Below, piece by piece: positions 1,917-27,514 of a stretch of 42,561 nt of DNA (the stretch's first letter is position 1; each line of letters opens with the position of its first letter). This DNA comes from Moraxellaceae bacterium (lineage in GTDB: Bacteria > Pseudomonadota > Gammaproteobacteria > Pseudomonadales > Moraxellaceae): the NCBI GenBank assembly GCA_947373945.1, contig CANBZV010000002.1, positions 1 through 42,561 on the forward strand. Reading direction: 5' to 3'. The translations under genes and the position numbers were made by a program. The notes under the pieces were generated by a model, which saw only the letters and a program-made list of their open reading frames with translations, made no database searches and was not told the DNA's origin.

Positions 1917-3986
1917 ATGGCGCATAAAAAGATTGAACAAGCTCTTCTCGAAAGTGAGCAACGTTATCGTGCGCTGTTTAATAACCGAACTCAAGCTTTG
2001 GTGGAATGTCGCATCATTACCGATGTTGAAGGCAAGCCTATTGATTACCTGCACCAAACTGCCAATGATGCCAGCTGTCGTATGCTAGGGCTACCGCGTG
2101 AGCAATTTGAAGGCAAACGCATTACTGAGTTATTTCCTGACGTTAATACCGTTGCTCCCGAACTCGTCGAGCAGTTGGGTAAAGTCGCTTTGCATGGCGA
2201 TGAAGTCACACTAGAGGTTTTCTTTACTCCAAGCGGCCAATGGTTTTCAGTCTATGCCTACAGTCCGGGTCAAGGTGAATTCACGGCTATGTTTACCGAT
2301 ATCACGGCGCAAAAAAAGGCGGATCAGGAGCGTGATGTATTAATGGAGCAACTACATCAGGCAGCGGTGCTGGCCAATCGTGAGCGGGCGCAGCTGGAGG
2401 CGGTATTTCAGTCATTAGCTGAAGGTATTTCAGTCTTTGATATGGCAGGTAATTTGCTTCTGAATAACGATGCGTTGGCGCGAATCTATGGGTTTGCCCA
2501 AGGCGAAGATATGCATCAAAACTTGGCTTATTTCGAGCGGATTTTTGAGCTAACTACGGCGGATGGAGAACTGATTCCAGTGTCTGCTTGGCCGGCTTCA
2601 CTCGTGTTGCAAGGAGAGTCGATCAAAGAGTGGGAGTTGCGGGGGCATCGGGTGGACACAGGCCAGTCCTGGTGTTTTAGTTATAACGGTACGCCTGTTT
2701 GTAATGAAGATGGTCAGCAAATATTAGCGGTTGTAGTGACGCGTGACATTACCGAACGCAAACGGCTGGAGCGCGAGCTGCATCAAGCGTATAACCGTCT
2801 CGCGAATAGCTTGGAAGCGGAGCAGGCGGCAAAAGAAGTTGCTGAGGCGGCTAATCGCGCCAAATCGGGCTTTTTAGCGACAATGAGTCATGAAATTCGC
2901 ACACCACTGAATGGCCTGATTGGTTTTACCGGCTTGTTGCTGGATAGCAAATTAACGGAAGAGCAGCACCGTTTTGCTGAGTTAGTACGTCAGTCGGGCG
3001 AATCTTTATTACATCTCATTAATGACTTTCTCGACTTTTCTAAGATTGAAGCGGGTTATTTGGAGCTGGAGCCGTTGGTGTTTGATCCTCTCCTAGTGGT
3101 GGAGCAGGCGCTTAATCTCGTTCAGGTAGCGGCTGAGCGTAAGGGGCTGGCACTACATCATCAGCTACAGACACCACATTTTGTTCGAGGCGATGCGGGG
3201 CGTTTGCGGCAAATATTACTTAATTTGTTAAGTAATGCTGTGAAGTTTACCGAGCACGGCGCTATCTCCCTGAACGGAGAAGTGTTGATGATGCAGGGTG
3301 GCGTGGTTTGGTTGCGCTTTATTGTGGTTGATACCGGTATTGGCATCAACGAAGAGGCGCAAGCGAGATTGTTCCAACCATTTATTCAGGCGGACGCGTC
3401 AACTACCCGCCGCTTTGGCGGTACCGGATTGGGGCTGGCTATTTGTCGCCGATTGGCGGAGGCGATGGGTGGTACGGTGAGTTTGGCTAGTAAACAAGGG
3501 CAGGGAAGTACGTTCACGTTAACACTGCCTTTCGATACCGTGCCTGAAGGTGTCGTAGCGGAGGCTGAGTCACTGTCAGGCGGTGAATTATATAGCGGCA
3601 GTGGTCACACCAATGGCCGAGTTCTGGTCGCGGAAGATAACCCCGTTAATCAGTTAATGGCTGTTGAGATGTTGAAAAGACTAGGTTTTCGCGTAGATGT
3701 CGTTGGTAATGGAGAGGAAGCCGTTCAAGCCGTGCAACACTTGCCTTACGATGTCGTATTAATGGATTGCGAGATGCCAGTAATGAGCGGACTGGAAGCG
3801 ACGCGCTTGATTCGCACGCAAGAGTCAGTAGATAGGCGAGTGCCAGTCATTGCCCTGACTGCCTCGGCATTAAAAGGTGATCGGGAGAAGTGCTTAGAAG
3901 CGGGTATGGATGATTTTTTGTCCAAACCCATGCGCCTGAGCGATTTGCGTAAAAAACTGGAAGTGTGGCTCGGCAAGGCAAGGTGA
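1917..3986 (+). CDS. PAS-domain hybrid sensor histidine kinase with C-terminal receiver
   Basis: PAS-like regions; HisKA (GFLATMSHEIRTPLNGLIGF); HATPase (LLNLLSNAVKFTEHG, DTGIGI, FGGTGLGLAI); receiver (VLVAEDNPVNQLM...VLMDCEMPVMSGLEATRLIR...ALTASALKGD). Confidence 0.95.
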   Translation: MAHKKIEQALLESEQRYRALFNNRTQALVECRIITDVEGKPIDYLHQTANDASCRMLGLPREQFEGKRITELFPDVNTVAPELVEQLGKVALHGDEVTLEVFFTPSGQWFSVYAYSPGQGEFTAMFTDITAQKKADQERDVLMEQLHQAAVLANRERAQLEAVFQSLAEGISVFDMAGNLLLNNDALARIYGFAQGEDMHQNLAYFERIFELTTADGELIPVSAWPASLVLQGESIKEWELRGHRVDTGQSWCFSYNGTPVCNEDGQQILAVVVTRDITERKRLERELHQAYNRLANSLEAEQAAKEVAEAANRAKSGFLATMSHEIRTPLNGLIGFTGLLLDSKLTEEQHRFAELVRQSGESLLHLINDFLDFSKIEAGYLELEPLVFDPLLVVEQALNLVQVAAERKGLALHHQLQTPHFVRGDAGRLRQILLNLLSNAVKFTEHGAISLNGEVLMMQGGVVWLRFIVVDTGIGINEEAQARLFQPFIQADASTTRRFGGTGLGLAICRRLAEAMGGTVSLASKQGQGSTFTLTLPFDTVPEGVVAEAESLSGGELYSGSGHTNGRVLVAEDNPVNQLMAVEMLKRLGFRVDVVGNGEEAVQAVQHLPYDVVLMDCEMPVMSGLEATRLIRTQESVDRRVPVIALTASALKGDREKCLEAGMDDFLSKPMRLSDLRKKLEVWLGKAR

Positions 3987-11850: not shown

Positions 11851-12756
11851 TTATTCGATGCTGGCGTGACTAGGTTTATAGGAAGTCAATACCACCCCAA
11901 AGAGCACCAAGCTAGCACCAAAAATTTGCCAATAAGTCAGAAACTCATCTAATAACCACGCACCTAATGCCAAGGTAATGACAGGACTTATGGCGCTAAT
12001 CAACGCCGATTGTGGTGCGCCAATACGGCGAATCCCTTGGGTTAATAAGGTGGCGGGAACAAAGGTGCAAAAAAAGCCCAAGATAGCGCTGAGTAACCAA
12101 ACACGTTTAGGAATAGTCGTTAATATTGTTAGCGAATGACTAAATAGAAAATGTAAAAAGCAGCATGTCGAGGCAATGGATAATGCGAGGGCGGTAAATC
12201 GTGCTGCACCAAACTGAGGAATTAATGCTCCGCTAGCAATCAAATAAGCGGCATAGGCTAAGGCGCCTAGAAACACCAGAATACTACCTAGAATCAGATG
12301 CGTGCTTTCTTGCTGCTGATTGCCAGCAAAAACCAGCATCATACCTGTGTAACTAATGGTAATAGCTATCCATGTCTTGCGGCTGATGGTCGTTTTGAAG
12401 CATAGAGCCGACAAAAAGACTGTCAGTGTGGGATACATAAATAAAATTAAACGCTCAAGACTCGCACTAATAAATTCCATCCCCCAAAAGTCTAAAATAC
12501 TGGCTCCGTAATAGCCTGCAACCCCTGCGATAATCAAGCCACTATAATCTTTGCGATTCAGGCATGGACTGGCTTCGTGAGCTGTATAAAGCATCACCAG
12601 AAAAAAAGGCAAGGCGAATGCCATGCGCAGGGCGAGAAGGGTGACAGCATCAACAGAGTATTGATATGCGAGTTTGACAAATACCGATTTAGCCGAAAAT
12701 AACGTGGCGGAAATGAGTACGCAGATTACACCCGTCATATAGCTTTTGGACTGCAT
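11851..12756 (-). CDS. EamA/DMT-family transporter (10-TM exporter)
   Basis: Two EamA-like repeats with multiple TM segments; C-terminal SALISAISPVITLALGAWLLDEFLTYWQIFGASLVLFGVVLTS. Confidence 0.85.
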   Translation of the reverse strand: MQSKSYMTGVICVLISATLFSAKSVFVKLAYQYSVDAVTLLALRMAFALPFFLVMLYTAHEASPCLNRKDYSGLIIAGVAGYYGASILDFWGMEFISASLERLILFMYPTLTVFLSALCFKTTISRKTWIAITISYTGMMLVFAGNQQQESTHLILGSILVFLGALAYAAYLIASGALIPQFGAARFTALALSIASTCCFLHFLFSHSLTILTTIPKRVWLLSAILGFFCTFVPATLLTQGIRRIGAPQSALISAISPVITLALGAWLLDEFLTYWQIFGASLVLFGVVLTSYKPSHASIE

Positions 12757-12971
12757 AAGGCGGTTTTTCTATGTGATGGCAGGCTGTGCAAAATAGCATT
12801 TATAGCCTTAAAAAACACGAGTAGAGTTTTTGGCTCGAAGAAAGTCATATTCAAGAAATTAGCGGTTGAGTAAAAGCGATACTTGGTCTAATAATTGCTG
12901 CCTAAAATCTGGGGTTTGTACAGAACAACACGGGAAGCAATGACTAAAACAACAAATTAATGAGGTTGACG

Positions 12972-14696
12972 ATGATAGAAAACGGCGATCTGATTTTGAC
13001 CTATTTGGAGCGGTTGGGTGTGGAATATGTGTTTGGTGTGCCAGGCGGCAGCATCGAACCGTTGTATAACGCCCTAGCACGGAGCGCAAGAAAAGGTGGC
13101 CCTCGAGCAATTGTTGCTCGTCATGAAGCAGGTGCGGCTTTTATGGCCGATGGTTATACGCGCGAAACAGGAAAAATAGGGGTCTGTTGCTCCACGGCAG
13201 GGCCTGGCGCAACCAATCTGATTACCGGAGTTGCTTCCGCTTATGCAGACGGTATTCCGATGCTGGTCATTACTGCACAAACGTCCATAGAAAAATTTGG
13301 CCGTGGCTCGTTTCAAGATAGCTCTTGTACAGGCATCAATACCGCCGAAATGTTCACGCACTGTACGCGTTTTAATACCCTCGTCTCCCATTCTGCCCAG
13401 CTTGAACCCAAGCTGCTGCAAGCAATCAGTTATGCCATTAGTAATCGTCCAGGCCCAGTGCATTTGAGCATCCCGCTCGATGTGATGCGCGATAAGGTCG
13501 AGCCTCATCGAATTAATGGCACCATGCGTGCGTTTATTAACCACGAAGTTGTACCTAGCCAAGAGGCGATGCAGTTGTTGTTAAAGGATTTAGCAGATAA
13601 AAATAAAGTCACTGTGGTGATTGGTGAGGGCGCAGAGGGCGCGATAGACGCCATTATCAATTTGATTGAGCTGCAAGGTTGGCTCTTTGTCACGACGCCA
13701 AGAGCCAAAGGTTTGGTCAATAACTTTCATCCCCTTTATCGGGGTGTTTTTGGTTTTGCGGGTCACGAAAGTGCGCGTGAAGCATTACTGCCCGAAAACG
13801 CCCAGCGTGTGATTGTTGTTGGTACGGCACTTGATGAAGTGTCAACCAGTGGTTGGGACACCTCAGCGATTATGTCTAAACGCTTAATCCACGTGTCGAG
13901 CAACTCAGAACATCTTAGTCGTTCGTATATGGCAAAGTTATGCATTCTGGGTTCTTTTGAACTCATGCTCAAGCCCTTTGCGGCACTGCTGGAGCGGCAG
14001 TCATTAAAAAAAGCGATGGCTCCATTACAAGATGATGAGGGTTTGCCGTGCATGGTGAGTTTGGCGAATCGAGAGCGCTGTTTTGATGCAGAAGGTCGGG
14101 TCAAGCCGCAAGCACTAATGACTAAGATGAGTGCGATTTGTCCTGATGATACCCGTGTATTAATGGATACCGGTAATAGCTTTCTATGGGGTATTCATTA
14201 CTGGAATTGTAAGCGGCCAAAAGATGTGGACAGCCGTAAAAGCCTTTTCCATATTGGTATTGGCTTTGCCTCAATGGGATGGGCGATTGGTGCAGCCGTT
14301 GGCATGGCGCTAGGCGCAAAAGGCCGCCCCGTCGTTTGTTTTACGGGTGATGGCAGCATGTTGATGAGTGGCCAGGAAATTACGGTAGCCTTGCAGGAAA
14401 GCCTCAATATTTTGTTTGTCGTGTTGAATGATTCATCACTAGGGATGATCAGACACGGTCAGCAATTGGGTGGAGCCGAGCAAATCGGCAATGAGTTACC
14501 CGCCGTTAATTTTGCCCAAATGGCGCAAGCCATGGGGGTCGAAGCGTATCGTATCGAAACCTTGGCCGACTTTGACCGCTTGGATATCCCCGCGCTACTC
14601 AGCAAGTCGGCCCCGTGTTTACTGGATGTGTTGATTGATGGTGATGAAGTGCCGCCTATGGGCGCACGGATGAAAGTTTTGACAGGAGCAGTGTGA
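12972..14696 (+). CDS. Thiamine-pyrophosphate-dependent enzyme, acetolactate-synthase-like
   Basis: MIENGDLILTYLERLGVEYVFGVPGGSIEPLYNAL...IVARHEAGAAFMADGYTRETGKIGVCCSTAGPGATNLITGVASAYADGIPMLVITAQ (activating Glu in RHEAGAA) and TPP motif GDGSM...VLNDSSLGMI. Start at 12972 has a better RBS (gagg) than 12960. Confidence 0.9.
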   Translation: MIENGDLILTYLERLGVEYVFGVPGGSIEPLYNALARSARKGGPRAIVARHEAGAAFMADGYTRETGKIGVCCSTAGPGATNLITGVASAYADGIPMLVITAQTSIEKFGRGSFQDSSCTGINTAEMFTHCTRFNTLVSHSAQLEPKLLQAISYAISNRPGPVHLSIPLDVMRDKVEPHRINGTMRAFINHEVVPSQEAMQLLLKDLADKNKVTVVIGEGAEGAIDAIINLIELQGWLFVTTPRAKGLVNNFHPLYRGVFGFAGHESAREALLPENAQRVIVVGTALDEVSTSGWDTSAIMSKRLIHVSSNSEHLSRSYMAKLCILGSFELMLKPFAALLERQSLKKAMAPLQDDEGLPCMVSLANRERCFDAEGRVKPQALMTKMSAICPDDTRVLMDTGNSFLWGIHYWNCKRPKDVDSRKSLFHIGIGFASMGWAIGAAVGMALGAKGRPVVCFTGDGSMLMSGQEITVALQESLNILFVVLNDSSLGMIRHGQQLGGAEQIGNELPAVNFAQMAQAMGVEAYRIETLADFDRLDIPALLSKSAPCLLDVLIDGDEVPPMGARMKVLTGAV

Positions 14697-15529
14697 TGAC
14701 TGACCAAAAGCAGGTTTTTCACAGTAACATCTGGTTTGAAGAACCAGAGGCCGACAATCCTTTTGCGGCAAAAGCATGTTATTGCCATGGTTATGATGTC
14801 TATGGCGAAGTGCTGGGTAAGGCAAGCTGGGCTGAGTATATCTATTTGATGTTTAAAGGTGAGCGTCCTTCCCCCGCCCAGGCGCAAATGCTGGAGTGGT
14901 TGGCTGTGGCACTAGCCAACCAGGGGCCACGCAACGCGGGTGTACGTGCAGGTATGAATGGTGGTGTTGGTGGCAGCGTCTCGGCGGGTTCGCTAATGGC
15001 GGCGCTGGCGGTAGGAGCAGGACAGTACGGTGGTGCGCATGAAGTATTTCATGTCGTTAACCTGTGGCAAAGCGCGGGGCAAAATTTGGCGGCCTGGCAG
15101 CTTGCGATACAGCAGTTGCTTAATAATAAAGACGTGGATATCTGGTTGCCGATGGAGCATTCCCCTGGTTTTGACCCCAATGGTAAAAGCTGCCCGACGC
15201 CGGTTCGGCAAACGTTACGCGCTTTAGCGTCCTGTAACCCTCACGGAGCCTTACATTGGCTGGGTGAAAACCAGTCGGCACTTGAGGCCATTGCCACCTG
15301 CCCGCTAGCAATGACAGGTGTAGCGGGTGCGGCTTTCTTTGATTTAGGTTTTAGCGCAGAACAGGCCGAAATGCTCTTTTTGATACTTGGTATGCCAGGT
15401 GCCGCTGTGCAGGCACTAGAGCAAAAAGAAATGGGTTGGAAAAAGTTTCCCTTTATAGCCTCCATGATTGAGCTGCAAGATGATCCAGGCTCTTTTGGTA
15501 TCCCAAGCATTGAGGAGTTCGGACTATGA
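14696..15529 (+). CDS. Citrate synthase / citryl-CoA lyase-like protein (paralogue A)
   Basis: ACYCHGYDVYGEVLGKASWAEYIYLMFKGERPSPAQAQML...GAGQYGGAHEVFHVV...EHSPGFDPNGKSC...FSAEQAEMLFLILGMPGAAVQALEQKEMGWKKFPF. Start overlaps the TPP gene stop (TGATG). Confidence 0.75.
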   Translation: MTDQKQVFHSNIWFEEPEADNPFAAKACYCHGYDVYGEVLGKASWAEYIYLMFKGERPSPAQAQMLEWLAVALANQGPRNAGVRAGMNGGVGGSVSAGSLMAALAVGAGQYGGAHEVFHVVNLWQSAGQNLAAWQLAIQQLLNNKDVDIWLPMEHSPGFDPNGKSCPTPVRQTLRALASCNPHGALHWLGENQSALEAIATCPLAMTGVAGAAFFDLGFSAEQAEMLFLILGMPGAAVQALEQKEMGWKKFPFIASMIELQDDPGSFGIPSIEEFGL

Positions 15530-16323
15530 GTAATAGCACGCTGCTGGCAAACGAAAATAAATGGCAAACCAGCATAGGCAAAGCCTTTTTATGTGATAGA
15601 GCGGTGTTAAGAGGTAAAGACTTACACCATCAATTGGGTGACTGGGATTGGTTTGCCGTTTATCTCTATGGCATTACTGGGCGCGAGTTCTCTGAGAGTC
15701 AGATAAAAATGTTAGCCTATTTCTGGATTGCAACCAGTTATGCCGACCCTAGCATTTGGCCAAATCATGTTGCTGCGCTGGGGGGCACAGTACGTAGTAC
15801 GGCATCTTTGTCCTGTATGGCTGGATTGGCGATTGGCGAGGCCTCTATTTATGGTCGCCGACCTGAAAAACGGGCATTGGATTTCTTTTACCGTACCAGC
15901 GCCGCTCTTGCCAAGGGTGAAGTGCTTGCAGAGATCATCGAACGAGAACTCATTGAGCGTAAAACGATCTATGGTTATGGCCGACCATTGGCAAAGCTTG
16001 ATGAGCGCGTTCCCCATACTCTCGTTATGGCTAAGAAATTAGGACTAGATGGTGGTAAGCACCTACAACTCGCCAAAGATATTTATCACTACCTCAAAAA
16101 TAACAAAGGCTTATCAATAAATATTTCTGCAATTAATACGGCGATTATTGCGGATATTGGTTTAAGCCCAGAGGAGTATCAGCTCTTTTTAACGCCGTGT
16201 TTTATTACTGGTATTGCCCCGTGTTACGTCGATACTCGTGATAAGCCAGAAGGCAGCTTTTTTCCTGTACGCTGTGCCAGCATCATCTATGGCGGTTTGG
16301 CTCGTAGGGCGTGGTCGGACTGA
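15526..16323 (+). CDS. Citrate synthase / citryl-CoA lyase-like protein (paralogue B)
   Basis: RGKDLHHQLGDWDWFAVYLYGITGREFSESQIKML...SCMAGLAIGEASIYGRRPEKRALDFF...YGYGRPLAKLDERVPHTLVMAKKLG...INISAINTAIIADIGLSPEEYQLFLTPCFITGIAPCYVD. ATGA overlap with the upstream gene. Confidence 0.75.
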   Translation: MSNSTLLANENKWQTSIGKAFLCDRAVLRGKDLHHQLGDWDWFAVYLYGITGREFSESQIKMLAYFWIATSYADPSIWPNHVAALGGTVRSTASLSCMAGLAIGEASIYGRRPEKRALDFFYRTSAALAKGEVLAEIIERELIERKTIYGYGRPLAKLDERVPHTLVMAKKLGLDGGKHLQLAKDIYHYLKNNKGLSINISAINTAIIADIGLSPEEYQLFLTPCFITGIAPCYVDTRDKPEGSFFPVRCASIIYGGLARRAWSD

Positions 16324-16422
16324 TCCATTTGATGGATGAGTGGTCTGGTGATTGAGCTTGAGTAGCGCCAAGGGAAACGCAAAAGCAATGACAACAATAC
16401 AGAGTGTAGAGCAGGGGCGAGT

Positions 16423-17178
16423 ATGAGATATAGCAATAAAGTCGTGATTGTGACCGGCGCAAGTTCGGGTATTGGCCGTCAGGCAGCAATTGAGTTTGCC
16501 CGTGAAGGGGCCAGAGTGGCTGTTGTCGCTCGGCGACAAGATCACGGTTTGGAGACTGTTGAGCTGATTAAATCAGCGGGTGGGCAAGCTATTTACTGCC
16601 AAGCCGATGTCACGGTAGCGAACCAAGTCAGTGCCATGGTCGATGATGTAATAAGACAGTTTGGACGCTTGGATTGCGCTTTTAATAATGCGGGAGCTGC
16701 TGAACCTATTTCCAATACTGTTGATTTGTCGGAAGAAGATTTTGACCGTGTGATCAGTACGAACCTCAAAGCGGCTTGGTTATGCATGAAGTACCAAATT
16801 CCCGCCATGCTCAACAGTGGCGGTGGAGCCATTGTTAATATGTCCTCAGTGTGGGGAGTTGTAGCCACCTCTATGGGGGTTCCGGCTTATGTTGCCAGTA
16901 AACATGGCGTCATTGGTCTGAGTAAAGCGGCGGCATTGGAGTTTGGCAGCAAGGGTATTCGAGTGAACTGCATCAGTCCGGCTTGGGTGCCAACTGAAGC
17001 TAATGCCCCTGTACTTGATAATGCAGACTTGTTAGGAATGATTTTAGCTCAGCACCCCATTGGTCGCTTGGGAACCACGCTGGATGTTGCCAATGCGGTT
17101 AAATGGATGTGTTCAGATGAAGCCTCATGGTACACCGCTCAGAATCTAGTCCTTGATGGAGGGTATTCTGCGCAATAA
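16423..17178 (+). CDS. Short-chain dehydrogenase/reductase (SDR) family oxidoreductase
   Basis: VTGASSGIGRQAA, NNAG, YVASK catalytic motif, ALEFGSKGIRVNCISPAWV, LVLDGGYSAQ. Confidence 0.93.
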   Translation: MRYSNKVVIVTGASSGIGRQAAIEFAREGARVAVVARRQDHGLETVELIKSAGGQAIYCQADVTVANQVSAMVDDVIRQFGRLDCAFNNAGAAEPISNTVDLSEEDFDRVISTNLKAAWLCMKYQIPAMLNSGGGAIVNMSSVWGVVATSMGVPAYVASKHGVIGLSKAAALEFGSKGIRVNCISPAWVPTEANAPVLDNADLLGMILAQHPIGRLGTTLDVANAVKWMCSDEASWYTAQNLVLDGGYSAQ

Positions 17179-17202
17179 GGCGTGATGAGTCTTTTGCGTA
17201 TA

Positions 17203-17233
17203 ATGATGTCGCCGGGTAAACGGCGGCATCATT
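17203..17233. terminator. Putative bidirectional terminator between SDR and TonB receptor genes
   Basis: atgatgtcgccg-ggtaaa-cggcggcatcat near-perfect 12-bp stem between convergent genes. Confidence 0.6.
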
Positions 17234-17242
17234 ACAATAGTC

Positions 17243-19378
17243 TTAAAAGTTATAAGTTAGTTCAGCATAAACACTGCGCCCAGCCATCGGAAAGTCTTTC
17301 GGCATATCGGCAACAGGGCCAGGGCTTGGTTCAGTGACATCGGTATCCAGCAAATTACGAACGGATAAAGCGACATCAAGACTTTTCCAAACTTCACTTT
17401 TACGCACTGTCATATCGACTGTTGTATAGGCATCGTTTGCGCTGCGGGGATCTCCGGCTACTCTCTTTTGTTTGCCTACCCAGGTAATTTGTGAGTCTAG
17501 GTGCCAGTCAGGAACAACGGTCCACTCGCTACGTGCATAGATTTGGTGATTAGGTGCATCACCAGCGTCCGTGTGCGTATTTTTGTCTTTTGATTGTTGG
17601 TAGGCGTAATTTGCTAAAAAGCGCAAGTTATATACCGGTGAGTAGTCCGCTTCTAATTCAAAGCCTTGTCCTTTGCGCTTACCAACGTTTTGTGCCTGAA
17701 TGACATTACCCGCAGAAGGCACAAAGGTTATGTAGTCCTGAATATTGTAGTAATAGATATTGGCCGTATAAAAAAGCTCAGAAGATAGTTGATGTGAAAA
17801 AGCAAGTTCGTAGGTATCAATGGTTTCTGGTTTAAGCTTTGGGTTACCTAACAGAACGGGATTGTTGACGATAAACAATTCGGAAAAGGCGGGTGCGCGA
17901 AATGCTTTACCATACAGAAATTTGGTCGTCATTTTGTCAGTTGTTGCCCACACTAACGCGAGTCGTGGATTGGTGGTGTTGCCAAAGTCCGAAAAGTGAT
18001 CATAACGAATACCAGTGGTTGCTTGCCAGTTGCGCGCGAACTTCCATTCGTCCTGGGCAAACAAATAGTAGCTAGTGCGTTGTTTTTCGGGGGCATAAAC
18101 TTCCGCAGTATCACTAACATCCTCTAAGCCATTTGCGCGCGGTGAAAAGTCTGCATTGAAGTTTTTAGTTTCGGTCACTTCAAACATGTCTCCCCAATAA
18201 CCACCCGTACCGACGCGCAGTAAGTGATTGTCCATGCCGCGATAAAGGGCGCTCAAGTCAACCCGCGCATTCTCTTCTTTAAAGCCAGGGTTACCAATAA
18301 AACCATCGGGATAGGCTCCGCCAAATGCCCCTGCAGGAAAGATCACGAGGTTTCTTTTAATTTCCTGAGTATTGCTGTAGTAGCTAACGCGGCTGTCAAC
18401 ATCCAGACTGGGAGCGAGCTCTTTGAGGATGTAGCTGTAATCGACATTATAGCGTTGGCTTTGAACACGGGAGGATGGGTCTAGTGCTTGCCCGACACCC
18501 ACACCCGAACCGACATGATAACGGCCTTGATAGCCTATTCTGAGTTGTGAGTTATCGTGAGCGATTTCAAGACGTGCATCCACCATGTCTTTCATTGTGT
18601 TAACACTGCCAGGTGCCAAGCTGGCATGGGTGTTGAATAGGGCATCAAAGGCTGTTTGATGATCTTGCTCCACGATGCCCTTCCAGCCATCAGTTGTTTC
18701 GGCCTCAAGGGTAAAACCAACATTCACATTATTATAAGAGCCGCCATGCGTTAACCAAGCGGCCTTTGTGTCGAAGCTGCCCACTCTCGCGCCTGTTTGA
18801 GTCCCGCGCATATCATCTGGCTTTTTGGTGATGATATTGATAACGCCCGAAAAGGCATCGGCACCGTAAAGAGCAGAACCAGGCCCACGAATGACTTCTA
18901 TGCGGGCAATGGATTTAACGGGCATGCCAATCCAGGCGTTACCCCGATTGCCGTGAAAAAGGCTGGTGACAGGAATACCATTAATAAGCATCAAAGTTTG
19001 CGGGTTATTGGTGGAGGTAATACCACGGATAATGTATTTGGGCGCATAGACCTGATCAGAACGCCCCACATGCAAGCCGGGCACAGTTTCCAATACTTGG
19101 TCAATGTCTGTCGCACCCATTGCCGTAATGTCATCTTCGGTAATGACAGTGGCAATAGCGGCGGCTTTATCAAGAGGTGTTTGTGTGCCTGAAGCAATAG
19201 ATGTCACTCGTATTTTGCCGAGTTCATCTAGAGACATATCCCACAAGTCACCACTGGCAGTTGCCTTGTTACTATAAATTAGAGCCTGCGACAGGCTCAT
19301 ACATAACACAAGTGCCGTGAGTGGTGTCTTAGGTTGTTTAGCGGTTGATATTGGTAAGTTGTTCATCATATACACCAT
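17243..19378 (-). CDS. TonB-dependent outer-membrane receptor (copy 1)
   Basis: Plug domain (SGTQTPLDKAAAIATVITEDDITAMGATDIDQVLETVPGLHV...YIIRGI...ARIEVIRGPGSALYGADAFSGVINIITKK) and C-terminal beta-barrel ending ...GRSVYAELTYNF. Confidence 0.95.
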   Translation of the reverse strand: MVYMMNNLPISTAKQPKTPLTALVLCMSLSQALIYSNKATASGDLWDMSLDELGKIRVTSIASGTQTPLDKAAAIATVITEDDITAMGATDIDQVLETVPGLHVGRSDQVYAPKYIIRGITSTNNPQTLMLINGIPVTSLFHGNRGNAWIGMPVKSIARIEVIRGPGSALYGADAFSGVINIITKKPDDMRGTQTGARVGSFDTKAAWLTHGGSYNNVNVGFTLEAETTDGWKGIVEQDHQTAFDALFNTHASLAPGSVNTMKDMVDARLEIAHDNSQLRIGYQGRYHVGSGVGVGQALDPSSRVQSQRYNVDYSYILKELAPSLDVDSRVSYYSNTQEIKRNLVIFPAGAFGGAYPDGFIGNPGFKEENARVDLSALYRGMDNHLLRVGTGGYWGDMFEVTETKNFNADFSPRANGLEDVSDTAEVYAPEKQRTSYYLFAQDEWKFARNWQATTGIRYDHFSDFGNTTNPRLALVWATTDKMTTKFLYGKAFRAPAFSELFIVNNPVLLGNPKLKPETIDTYELAFSHQLSSELFYTANIYYYNIQDYITFVPSAGNVIQAQNVGKRKGQGFELEADYSPVYNLRFLANYAYQQSKDKNTHTDAGDAPNHQIYARSEWTVVPDWHLDSQITWVGKQKRVAGDPRSANDAYTTVDMTVRKSEVWKSLDVALSVRNLLDTDVTEPSPGPVADMPKDFPMAGRSVYAELTYNF

Positions 19379-19464: not shown

Positions 19465-21618
19465 CTAGAACTGATACTGTGCCTCAGCGAATAGGCTGCG
19501 GCCTGCCATCGGAAAGTCATTAGGGATGGCACCTACAGGGCTAGGTTCGCGCACATCAGCATTAAACAAATTGCGTACCGATAGCGTTAAATCCAGACCG
19601 TTCAACACGTCTTGTTTGCGTAAGGTAACGTCAACTGTTGTATAAGCTGCCAATGCCGCTCGCGTATCGCCGATAACACGCTTTTGTTTCCCAACCCAGG
19701 TTATTTGACTATCAATATGCAAATTCGAAGGCGTACTCCATTCACTTCGGCCATATATTTTATGATTTGGGGCTTCTCCAACATCGCTTTTACTGTTTCG
19801 ATCTTCTGAATGCTGATAGGCGTAGTTGATCAAAAAGCGCATGTTATAGGCTGGGGCATAGTCGGCTTCCAGCTCTACACCTTGTCCTTGGCGTTTGCCA
19901 ATGTTTTGTGCCTTGGCAATGCTGCCTATGGGAACAAAGGTAATAAAATCCTGAATGTTATAGCGGTAGACATTTGCGGTATATGAAAATTGTGAGGAAA
20001 GTTGGTGTGAAAGCGCTAGCTCATAGGTGTCTATGGTTTCAGGCTCCAGTTCAGTATTGCCTAAGCTGATCGGGTTACTGGTGACAAATAACTCCGAGAA
20101 AGAGGGGGCACGAAAAGCGCGCCCATATAAGAGTTTCGTCGTGATTTGACTCGTGGTTGCCCATACTAATGCGAGACGTGGATTGGTCGTACTGCCAAAA
20201 TCCGAAAAGTGATCATAGCGTACGCCTGTTGTCGCGAGCCAATCGCGTGAAAACTTCCATTCATCTTGCATAAATAAATAATAACTTTGGCGCTGGTTTT
20301 CGGGCAAATAAACTTCGGCGGTATCGCTGACATCTTCTATCCCGTTGGGGCGAGGAGGAAAGATTGGTGTGCCATCAGGAAGAAAGGCGACAGAGAAGTT
20401 TTTAGTTTCAGTCACTTCATACATGTCATCCCATGCTCCGCCGATACCAAGGCGAATCAAATGACTATTTATGCCTTTATAAAGGCTGCTCAGATCAAGG
20501 CGGACATTTTCTTCGTGGTATCCCGGGTTACCAATGAAGCCATCAGGAAAAGCACCACCAAACGCACCTTTGGGGTACAAATAGATATTTTTCTCAATTT
20601 CCTGGGTGTTTTTATAATAACTAACCTGGCTATTGATGCCCCAGTTTGGCGTTAAGTCATTAAGCGTGTAGCTATAGTCTACATTGTAACGTTCGCTGGT
20701 CGTGCGGGAAGATGGGTCTAGTGCCTCGGCATAACCGACGCTCGAACCCACATGATAACGCCCTTGGTAGCCAGCTCTTAGCCGAGAGTGATCATAGGCA
20801 ACATCAAGTCTAGCTTCCATCATGTCTTTCATCGTGTTCACATTGCCAGGGGCGAGGCTTGCTTGAGTTTTAAATAGACCATCAAACGCGGTTTGCTGGT
20901 CTTGTTGAACTGTTTTTTTCCAGCCGTCCGTTGTTTCCGCTTCAAGGGTGAAACCAATATCCATATTGCTGTACGTACCACCCTGTTCGAAGGAAATGGC
21001 TTTTGAACCAAAGCTGCCTGTACGTATGGCTATTTTACTGCCGTTAATGTCATTGGCTGTTTTGGTAATAATATTAATAACGCCAGAGAAAGCATCTGCG
21101 CCATATAAAGCAGAGCCTGGCCCGCGAATCACTTCTATCCGTGCAATTGATTTCACGGGCATTCCAGTCCAGATATTGCCTCGGTTACCCGTAAATAGGC
21201 TGGTCACGGGAATGCCATTAATCAACACCAAAGCTTGTGGATTAAAGGTGGAGGTAATGCCGCGGATAATGTATTTAGCCGTGTAGCCTTGGCTTGAGCG
21301 TGCGACATGTAAACCTGGGACGGTTTCCAATACTTGATCAAGGTCTGTTGCTCCCATTGCAGTAATATCATTCTCTGTGATAACGGTCGCGATAGCAGCA
21401 GCTTTATCAAGCGGGGTTTTTGTCCCTGAAGCAATGGACGTTACGCGTATTTTGCCTAGATCGGCAAGCGACATGTCCCATAAATCACTATTAGCCGTTA
21501 CGACATCACTGCACGTTGAGAGGAATGAGAGCATTAGAGAGAAACGAATTATGGTAACTTTTTTATCTGGATACTTTGAGATAGATGTTTTTACTGTTTT
21601 TTTCATTATGGACACCAT
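19465..21618 (-). CDS. TonB-dependent outer-membrane receptor (copy 2, paralogue of copy 1)
   Basis: Same architecture with long stretches of near-identical protein sequence to copy 1 (e.g. SIARIEVIRGPGSALYGADAFSGVINIITK); C-terminus ...GRSLFAEAQYQF. Confidence 0.95.
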   Translation of the reverse strand: MVSIMKKTVKTSISKYPDKKVTIIRFSLMLSFLSTCSDVVTANSDLWDMSLADLGKIRVTSIASGTKTPLDKAAAIATVITENDITAMGATDLDQVLETVPGLHVARSSQGYTAKYIIRGITSTFNPQALVLINGIPVTSLFTGNRGNIWTGMPVKSIARIEVIRGPGSALYGADAFSGVINIITKTANDINGSKIAIRTGSFGSKAISFEQGGTYSNMDIGFTLEAETTDGWKKTVQQDQQTAFDGLFKTQASLAPGNVNTMKDMMEARLDVAYDHSRLRAGYQGRYHVGSSVGYAEALDPSSRTTSERYNVDYSYTLNDLTPNWGINSQVSYYKNTQEIEKNIYLYPKGAFGGAFPDGFIGNPGYHEENVRLDLSSLYKGINSHLIRLGIGGAWDDMYEVTETKNFSVAFLPDGTPIFPPRPNGIEDVSDTAEVYLPENQRQSYYLFMQDEWKFSRDWLATTGVRYDHFSDFGSTTNPRLALVWATTSQITTKLLYGRAFRAPSFSELFVTSNPISLGNTELEPETIDTYELALSHQLSSQFSYTANVYRYNIQDFITFVPIGSIAKAQNIGKRQGQGVELEADYAPAYNMRFLINYAYQHSEDRNSKSDVGEAPNHKIYGRSEWSTPSNLHIDSQITWVGKQKRVIGDTRAALAAYTTVDVTLRKQDVLNGLDLTLSVRNLFNADVREPSPVGAIPNDFPMAGRSLFAEAQYQF

Positions 21619-25046: not shown

Positions 25047-25625
25047 ATGCTGTTAATGATAGATAACTACGACTCGTTTACCTATAACATCGTCCAATAT
25101 TTGGGTGAGTTAGGGCAAGATGTGCGGGTCTTTCGCAATGATGAAATTTCACTTGCTGATATTGAAGCGCTGCAACCAAATCATATTGTTATTTCACCAG
25201 GTCCTTGCTCGCCCAACGAGGCAGGTATTTCCTTGGCCGTTATTCAATATTTTGCGGGAAAAGTGCCGTTATTAGGTGTTTGTTTGGGGCATCAAAGTAT
25301 AGGCCAGGCGTTTGGTGGCGATGTCATTCGCGCGCGTCAGGTCATGCATGGCAAAACATCACCGATTTATCATAAAAATCAGGGCGTATTTCGCCAGCTT
25401 AATAATCCTTTAGTGGCTACGCGTTATCATTCATTGGTGGTAGACAACAATACTCTGCCTGACTGTCTTGAAGTCACGGCTTGGACTCAGTTGGAAGATG
25501 GTTCTCTAGATGAAATTATGGGCCTGCGTCATAAAACATTGGCAGTAGAAGGTGTGCAATTTCATCCAGAATCTATACTTACAGAGCAAGGACACGCCCT
25601 GTTACAAAATTTCCTTGAGGCTTAA
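25047..25625 (+). CDS. trpG: Anthranilate/aminodeoxychorismate synthase component II (glutamine amidotransferase)
   Basis: [23 protein letters not shown]...[12 protein letters not shown]...[17 protein letters not shown]...[14 protein letters not shown]; directly upstream of trpD-trpC. Confidence 0.95.
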
Positions 25626-25628
25626 CGC

Positions 25629-26675
25629 ATGGATATTAAAACAGCCTTGGCTCACGTTGCCTCGCGCCAAAATTTGACGCTTATTGATATGCAATCCGTC
25701 ATGCGTTCAATTATGACGGGTGAGTGTACATCTGCCCAGATCGCTGGCTTTTTAGTCGCTTTGCGCATGAAAGGCGAGACACTGGACGAAATTGAAGGCG
25801 CAGTGCGCGTGATGCGCGAGTTGTGTACTCCTGTCGTGCTGTCGACATTGGAACATACGGTTGATATTGTTGGCACGGGCGGCGATGGTGCAAATTTATT
25901 TAATGTCTCTACGGCATCATCGTTTGTTGTTGCAGCTGCGGGAGCAACGGTCGCCAAGCATGGTAATCGGGCTGTATCATCCAAGAGTGGTAGTGCCGAT
26001 GTTTTGGAAGCGGCTGGTATCAATTTGAATTTAACGGCAGAGCAAACGGCCCGTTGTATTGATAGTGTTGGCGTGGGCTTTATGTTTGCGGTAAATCATC
26101 ATGCCGCCATGCGTCACGCAATTGTGCCTCGACGCGAATTAGGGTTGCGAACATTGTTTAATGTCTTAGGGCCGCTCACTAATCCTGCGGCAGTCAAACG
26201 GCAGGTTCTAGGGGTTTATGCTCAAGAATGGTGTAGACCGTTAGCAGAGGTTTTAGGGCGTTTAGGTAGTGAGCATGTGATGGTCGTACATGCTCAAGAT
26301 GGCCTCGATGAAATCAGTTTGGCGACACCGACCTATGTAGCTGAATTGAAAAATGGCGAAGTTCGCGAGTATCTACTACAACCGGAAGATGTTGGCTTAA
26401 AATCGCAAGCATTAGATGGTCTGATTGTGGATAATGTCTCACAATCGCTGGCATTGCTGGAAGATGCCTTAGGCAAGCGTAAAGAGCCTGCAGCAGACAA
26501 GGCGGCCGATATGATTGCCCTTAATGCAGGCGCGGCACTCTATGTTGCAGGGGTTGCGGCGACCATTAAACAAGGCGTGGCGATGGCCGAAGATGCAATT
26601 CACAGCGGTTTGGCATTAGAAAAATTAGCAATTTTGCGCGACTTTAGTTGTGCTTTTATACCTGTTTCGGCCTAA
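25629..26675 (+). CDS. trpD: Anthranilate phosphoribosyltransferase
   Basis: [52 protein letters not shown]...[30 protein letters not shown]. Confidence 0.97.
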
Positions 26676-26692
26676 TTATCAGATTAACTATT

Positions 26693-27514
26693 ATGACATC
26701 ACATATTTTGGGGACGATTCTCCAGCGTAAAGCCGAAGAAGTTGAAGTCCGTCAACGGCAAATCTCGTATGCTACGCAGGATGCTCGTGCGCGAACTGCA
26801 ATGCCGGTACGGGGATTTTATAGCGCCCTTAAGCGTCGCGTAGACAAAGGCGAACCTGCAGTTATTGCTGAAATTAAAAAAGCCTCGCCATCAAAAGGGG
26901 TATTGCGTGAAGATTTTGTGCCTGCGCAAATTGCCCGTAGCTATGAAAAGGCTGGGGCAGCCTGTTTGTCGGTATTAACGGATATTGATTTTTTTCAAGG
27001 GGCGGATAGTTATTTACAGTCAGCGCGGTTTTCATGCATGTTGCCCGTTCTGCGTAAAGATTTTATCGTTGATCCTTATCAAATTGTTGAAGCACGGGCT
27101 ATTGGTGCCGATGCTGTCCTGCTGATTGTCAGTGCGTTATCCGATGGCCAGTTGGCAGAGTTTTATGCCTTAGCAACATCACTCGAATTGGATGTATTGG
27201 TTGAGGTTCATAGCCAAGCCGAACTTGATCGTGCATTAAAATTACCGTTGACTATGATCGGTATTAATAATCGAAATTTAAAAACGTTCCAAGTTAGTTT
27301 AAATACCACATTGGCCCTGTTGCGTGCCGTGCCTAAAGACAAAATGATTGTCACCGAAAGCGGTATTTTGCATCCCTCGGATGTGACATTGATGCAAGCG
27401 AATGGCATTAATGCCTTTTTGGTGGGTGAGGCCTTTATGCGCGCTGATGATCCAGGTGATGCGCTTAAAGACCTGTTTTTTTCGGGGCCAAAAATCAGCG
27501 GGTTCCGAAGATAA
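26693..27514 (+). CDS. trpC: Indole-3-glycerol phosphate synthase
   Basis: [17 protein letters not shown]...[41 protein letters not shown]...[26 protein letters not shown]...[10 protein letters not shown]...TESGI. Start at 26693 preferred. Confidence 0.97.

Follow-up and report, generated by a model that had tools for sequence, protein, structure and literature searches.

A conserved enzyme trio and TonB-dependent receptor in environmental Gammaproteobacteria suggest a self-made, recaptured small molecule

What do a thiamine pyrophosphate (TPP)-dependent enzyme, two paralogous proteins with a probable citrate synthase fold (CSA and CSB) and a short-chain dehydrogenase/reductase (SDR) accomplish together when their genes lie one after another in a Moraxellaceae bacterium? 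The genes are carried on contig CANBZV010000002.1 of assembly GCA_947373945.1, of which all 42,561 nucleotides of positions 1 to 42,561 were analyzed (the window), and they had been described from the sequence as a four-gene catabolic or biosynthetic module (the original prediction). Comparison across genomes shows that the conserved unit consists of the TPP, CSA and CSB genes together with a TonB-dependent receptor (TBDR), and that the SDR is a sporadic add-on. This module suggests a widespread, apparently undescribed system for producing a small molecule and afterwards sensing it or taking it back up. The genes concerned are the following.

12972..14696, + strand: TPP-dependent carboligase/decarboxylase, BbmA/CsmA/ScyA-like, core gene 1 (Pfam, PDB and NCBIfam matches)
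14696..15529, + strand: CSA, citrate-synthase-fold paralogue without the catalytic triad, core gene 2 (citryl-CoA lyase-like matches)
15526..16323, + strand: CSB, second citrate-synthase-fold paralogue without the triad, core gene 3 (profile matches)
17243..19378, - strand: TBDR 1, core gene 4 (Pfam Plug and barrel)
16423..17178, + strand: SDR-family oxidoreductase, optional accessory (domain and profile matches)

The layout of the predicted four genes is as originally described: the open reading frame (ORF) listing contains all four, the TPP stop and CSA start overlap in TGATG, CSA and CSB overlap in ATGA, and the SDR follows CSB on the same + strand after a gap of 99 bp. The TPP ORF is open from 12960, with 12972, the start originally given, the likelier one in view of the spacing of an upstream GAGG, and CSA may begin at 14693 or 14696.

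A first scan of named genomes placed the CSA-CSB pair in Agitococcus, three Gallionellaceae, Ca. Tenderia and another gammaproteobacterial metagenome-assembled genome (MAG), and at all six loci the pair adjoins a TBDR resembling the window receptors. Of 369 gammaproteobacterial genomes searched in full, 44 encode CSB, and these positives represent more than 25 families; in the window's own family the count is 6 of 149. CSB is also present in genomes of another proteobacterial class, and no homologue was found in the plasmids searched. Because the gene set recurs in dozens of genomes, at roughly 30-88% identity, its grouping is not a product of chance.

About 20 kb was then read around each of 52 CSB-bearing loci (two of which, L002 and L082 of Agitococcus, are the same contig). 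CSA is found at 49 of these loci, the TPP gene at 43, a TBDR at 42, a histidine kinase (HK) at 31, a periplasmic binding protein (PBP) at 27, a GGDEF/EAL protein at 13 and an SDR-like gene at 8. The census thus led us to reject the SDR, which the original prediction had counted as a core member, and to class it as accessory, since it occurs at so few loci and is missing from the same-genus locus L082. Its only close copy (80%, same position) lies at L080, in a second genome of the window's genus, where all four predicted genes do recur together. The boundary drawn ahead of the TBDR was likewise misplaced: the receptor belongs to the conserved unit, and 52 genomes have a member of its subfamily (E≤1e-130), for the most part those that carry CSB. 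What survives of the predicted module is an undescribed, co-inherited enzymatic unit, and neighborhood analysis across genomes finds TPP, CSA, CSB and TBDR recurring together. The notion of a stand-alone pathway is not supported, because a receptor regularly accompanies the enzymes, as do sensor proteins in most lineages. Remote CSA-like matches at L117-L120 have no module around them and were treated as ordinary relatives. At L078 (genome G034) the CSB and TPP matches lie in pieces across different frames, and at L068 (G262) the TBDR is interrupted by an opposite-strand ORF, the gene being intact in L073.

The TPP enzyme carries all three TPP Pfam domains (N/M/C), and catalytic Glu56 and the GDG...N motif are kept in 100% of 44 homologues; judged by these domains and this motif, it fits the superfamily of thiamine diphosphate (ThDP)-dependent 2-oxo acid carboligases. 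Its score against the ScyA-type NCBIfam model is 274.6 bits (cut-off 1000), and that against the best acetolactate synthase (ALS) equivalog is 291 bits (cut-off 509). ScyA acts on aromatic 2-oxo acids. Among solved structures, the best match is BbmA (1.5e-97), with CsmA also among the closest. By analogy, the best chemical precedent we found is the NzsH/carbazole literature, in which NzsH(CqsB3) forms alpha-hydroxy-beta-keto acids from 2-oxo acids, aromatic ones included (PMC7466098). The possibility that the TPP enzyme is the organism's IlvB, and its sole enzyme of that type, is ruled out: there is no ilvN beside the TPP gene, and the organism's acetolactate synthase genes sit on another contig, as ilvB-ilvN-ilvC (G000:C63).

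The two citrate-synthase-fold proteins depart further from their named relatives. CSA has no Pfam match and CSB a sub-threshold match to Citrate_synt; both are matched weakly by NCBIfam citryl-CoA lyase models, and the closest solved relative of each is citryl-CoA lyase 6HXP. The two are paralogues of one another (hhalign 99%). 6HXP is also the top fold match for their AlphaFold models, in agreement with the sequence profiles, and these fold matches are only supportive because the models reach a pLDDT (predicted local distance difference test) of 56 from alignments of 7 sequences each. Alignment of 49 CSA and 49 CSB sequences to E. coli GltA (His264/His305/Asp362) reveals that CSB carries Tyr at the first triad position in 47/49 and Arg at the second in 49/49, with Ala, Asn, Gly or Ser instead of Asp. 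CSA has His at the first position in 17/49, no conserved His at the second and no Asp. On this alignment, the catalytic triad of citrate synthase is gone from both proteins. Because the catalytic His/His/Asp is not conserved, the expectation that they act like citrate synthases in forming or cleaving C-C bonds between acyl-CoA and oxo acids is not supported. Seven CSB residues (W78, N80, R153, R161, N199, C233 and R261) are invariant in the 49 sequences, which argues that selection maintains CSB for a different role; that Cys233 is a candidate nucleophile is speculation from this conservation. In the window, CSA residue 240 is Gln, where 48/49 homologues have the His of a PGxxAHxxE motif.

Pairwise-distance correlations are highest for CSA-CSB (r 0.90) and TPP-TBDR (0.86), and lie at 0.46-0.65 across these pairs, a pattern in keeping with CSA and CSB forming a heteromer and being passed on together. 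In a separate comparison within the window's genus, the L080 genome (G372) and the window share 81% identity in TPP and 80% in SDR but 45% in CSA and 50% in CSB, as if the CSA-CSB pair had been exchanged as a cassette.

In the Gammaproteobacteria, and in a single family from another proteobacterial class, the core four are usually accompanied by a PBP of family PF04392 and by a hybrid HK with two transmembrane (TM) segments or a GGDEF/EAL protein. Most PBP copies begin with a hydrophobic, signal-like segment, nearly all of the kinases have two hydrophobic segments around a loop of about 130-150 aa, and domain searches class the sensor proteins near the module as HK, response regulator, GGDEF and EAL types. 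Arrangements vary: a two-TM GGDEF-EAL protein directly follows the PBP at L053, PAS/GAF kinases flank the trio in family f103 (L074, L075), and the distant family f203 (L112-L115, roughly 31-38% identity) has TBDR-CSA-CSB-TPP-PBP-HK as one compact block. At the loci of family f211 (L109-L111), no TBDR was found but kinases are present: in place of the usual sensors, a giant protein of ~1,730 residues (with the architecture Ser/Thr kinase-AAA-GAF-HK in L109) comes after the trio, and then a LuxR-type response regulator. A gene for a MaoC-SDR fusion, an FkbH-like protein or a methyltransferase lies close by at some f211 loci, and L108, in a genome outside the class, has an AMP-ligase near the trio; such tailoring-type enzymes occur in L108-L111 and L052. 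Response regulator-SpoIIE phosphatase-HATPase proteins are encoded directly upstream of the TPP gene at L058:14492-16228 and L067:13112-14839 and are another signaling link.

Membership of the PBP subfamily was assigned with alignment A5 (E≤1e-20) across the 369 gammaproteobacterial genomes. It is present in 51, namely 40/44 CSB-positive versus 11/325 CSB-negative genomes (Fisher p 9e-39, a nominal value because the genomes share ancestry and are not phylogenetically independent). Restriction to strong matches leaves 37/44 versus 5/325. PBP and CSB lie on different contigs in 12 of the 40 co-occurring genomes, so their association is not merely adjacency; the PBP neighborhoods read, from most of these 12, contain a kinase. 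The five genomes with a strong PBP match and no detected CSB (G204, G206, G213, G232 and G286) are possible receptor-only genomes, within the limits of contig ends and incompleteness. The PDB relatives of the PBP, 3LFT, 3LKV and 6HNI, bind aromatic amino acids, and by a weak analogy aromatic binding would fit an aromatic acyloin.

The window has further features around this core, among them the divergent EamA gene and the strong hairpin after the SDR, both of which are where they were originally reported.

About 17201..17234, no strand: bidirectional hairpin terminator in the SDR/TBDR interval (-28 kcal/mol, z -5.4)
19465..21618, - strand: TBDR 2, tandem paralogue, 69% identical to receptor 1
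11851..12756, - strand: EamA/DMT (drug/metabolite transporter)-family transporter, divergent, candidate exporter (Pfam)
12757..12971, no strand: intergenic/promoter region separating the divergent EamA and TPP genes, without a Fur or Zur box match

TBDR 1 has both the Plug and the TonB-dependent barrel domains in Pfam. Tandem TBDR copies also occur at module loci L006, L049, L066, L076 and L079 and perhaps serve variant ligands. A PAS hybrid histidine kinase/response regulator is encoded at 1917-3986, about 9 kb upstream of the module, and trpG-trpD-trpC-type genes lie at 25047-27514, a few kb past the receptors; the latter are not beside the module in Agitococcus L002.

Taken together, the best reading, which we give an even chance of being right, is that an acyloin-type metabolite is made by the trio and secreted, then rebound by the TBDR and, in most relatives, sensed by the PBP and kinase. 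The TPP enzyme would join a pair of 2-oxo acids, of which one or both may be aromatic, into an acyloin or alpha-hydroxy-beta-keto acid, which CSA and CSB, probably as a heteromer, would process further by chemistry other than that of the citrate synthase triad. Variable tailoring enzymes may decorate the product (the SDR here; O-methyltransferase, MaoC-SDR, FkbH-like or AMP-ligase enzymes elsewhere), and it would be exported, possibly via EamA in the window's genus. The dedicated receptor would capture it, and in most relatives it would then reach a periplasmic PF04392 PBP, which would signal to a hybrid kinase with two TM segments or to a GGDEF/EAL protein in the manner of LuxP/LuxQ. The local form in the window's genus may be uptake-only or use another sensor, because the PBP subfamily is missing there.

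Several points weigh against this reading. The product, its activity and its secretion, like the rest of the chemistry and the signaling, are what we infer from observed gene content, co-inheritance, domain architectures and triad loss. The AlphaFold models of CSA and CSB are poor, no exporter is conserved with the trio across the loci read, and import, sensing and degradation of a foreign compound could give the same co-occurrence. Some genomes have the trio and TBDR and no detected sensors (contig ends and incomplete MAGs contribute here). The window's genus yielded distant PF04392 proteins at best (E about 1e-11) and no member of the PBP subfamily, so sensing is at most a possibility in the window organism. 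Co-inheritance of a synthase with a PBP/kinase receptor, as expected of a quorum-sensing-like system, is found in the relatives and not in this genus. The case for signaling thus rests on the relatives, because the window's genus has the enzymes and receptors but not the standard sensor. The more specific proposal of a new class of cell-cell signal is held tentatively, with the balance somewhat against it: an acyloin-derived product of a TPP enzyme and a repurposed citrate-synthase-fold pair, TonB-captured and read by PF04392 proteins via hybrid kinases and cyclic di-GMP (c-di-GMP) enzymes in about 12% of sampled gammaproteobacterial species, on which receptor-only genomes may eavesdrop.

An unlikely alternative is a metallophore, in which TPP/CSA/CSB make a small hydroxy/oxo-carboxylate chelator, EamA exports it, the TBDR imports the metal-loaded form and the PBP-HK of relatives reports uptake. 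The closest solved relatives of the TBDR in a PDB search are siderophore receptors of the CirA/FepA type, the window has two TBDRs in tandem, and the PBP-HK pair is not found in its genus. An EamA exporter beside TBDR-linked biosynthetic genes also characterizes pseudopaline loci, which the window resembles. Yet a consensus scan of the window, an indirect test of metal regulation, gave no Fur or Zur box at ≤3 mismatches, genes for FecIR or for ABC/inner-membrane uptake do not recur near the loci, the module's regular companions elsewhere are kinases and GGDEF/EAL proteins, and L109-L111 have kinases without a TBDR. EamA itself is at the same place only in the window and Agitococcus L002/L082, and the ABC-F ATPases near several loci (cluster c7) were rejected as exporters, being judged housekeeping proteins of mixed type.

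We regard as comparably improbable a catabolic island whose TBDR imports an environmental compound that the PBP-HK senses and TPP/CSA/CSB degrade. TPP decarboxylases and citryl-CoA lyase-like folds can serve catabolism, and sensing, uptake and degradation are commonly arranged together. Against this, no ABC permease family or other inner-membrane permease, CoA ligase or CoA transferase recurs around the block at the loci read, CSA and CSB are without the C-C lyase triad, the output is often c-di-GMP or a LuxR-type response regulator, and the tailoring-type enzymes noted above stand near the trio. Ordinary acetolactate/branched-chain or citramalate-type metabolism with incidental neighbors is very improbable: the TPP enzyme does score against acetolactate synthase models, but every one falls far under its cut-off, ilvB-ilvN-ilvC is elsewhere in the genome, and co-inheritance with TBDR and PBP is strict.

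We found no description of the module in the open-access literature (subscription papers were outside the scope) under BbmA/CsmA, TPP with citryl-CoA lyase and quorum sensing, or TonB with PBP and kinase. If a self-made, recaptured molecule is indeed involved, the module would represent a widespread, apparently undescribed signaling or metallophore pathway in environmental Gammaproteobacteria, including Gallionellaceae. Its synthase would be of a new type, whose two citrate-synthase-fold proteins must rely on another chemistry, and its receptor chain would run from a TonB receptor to a sensor kinase. With only three genes, the synthase can be expressed in E. coli and assayed directly, which makes the question testable now.

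Several known systems share features with the module. CSA and CSB resemble citryl-CoA lyase (PRK06224, 6HXP) and citrate synthase in length, probable fold and weak profile similarity, but their catalytic His/His/Asp is replaced, CSB has invariants of its own and the two are nearly always paired. The TPP enzyme shares the full TPP domain set with the ThDP carboligases ScyA, NzsH(CqsB3), BbmA and CsmA, its top-scoring relatives, and differs in falling below the ScyA-type NCBIfam cut-offs; to our knowledge, the clusters of those enzymes carry no CSA/CSB/TBDR partners. Pseudopaline/staphylopine-type loci likewise combine a TonB receptor, an EamA/DMT exporter and biosynthetic genes, whereas the window has other biosynthetic enzymes, no Zur box found and an EamA not conserved in relatives. 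In contrast to LuxP-LuxQ (autoinducer-2, AI-2), the module's PBP belongs to PF04392 instead of the LuxP family, its synthase is TPP with CSA/CSB instead of LuxS, a TonB receptor gates the outer membrane, and the PBP-kinase pair was not found in the window's genus. The relatives nevertheless share with LuxP-LuxQ, and with further hybrid kinases that are coupled to a PBP, a secreted binding protein and a two-TM hybrid kinase leading to phosphorelay or c-di-GMP output.

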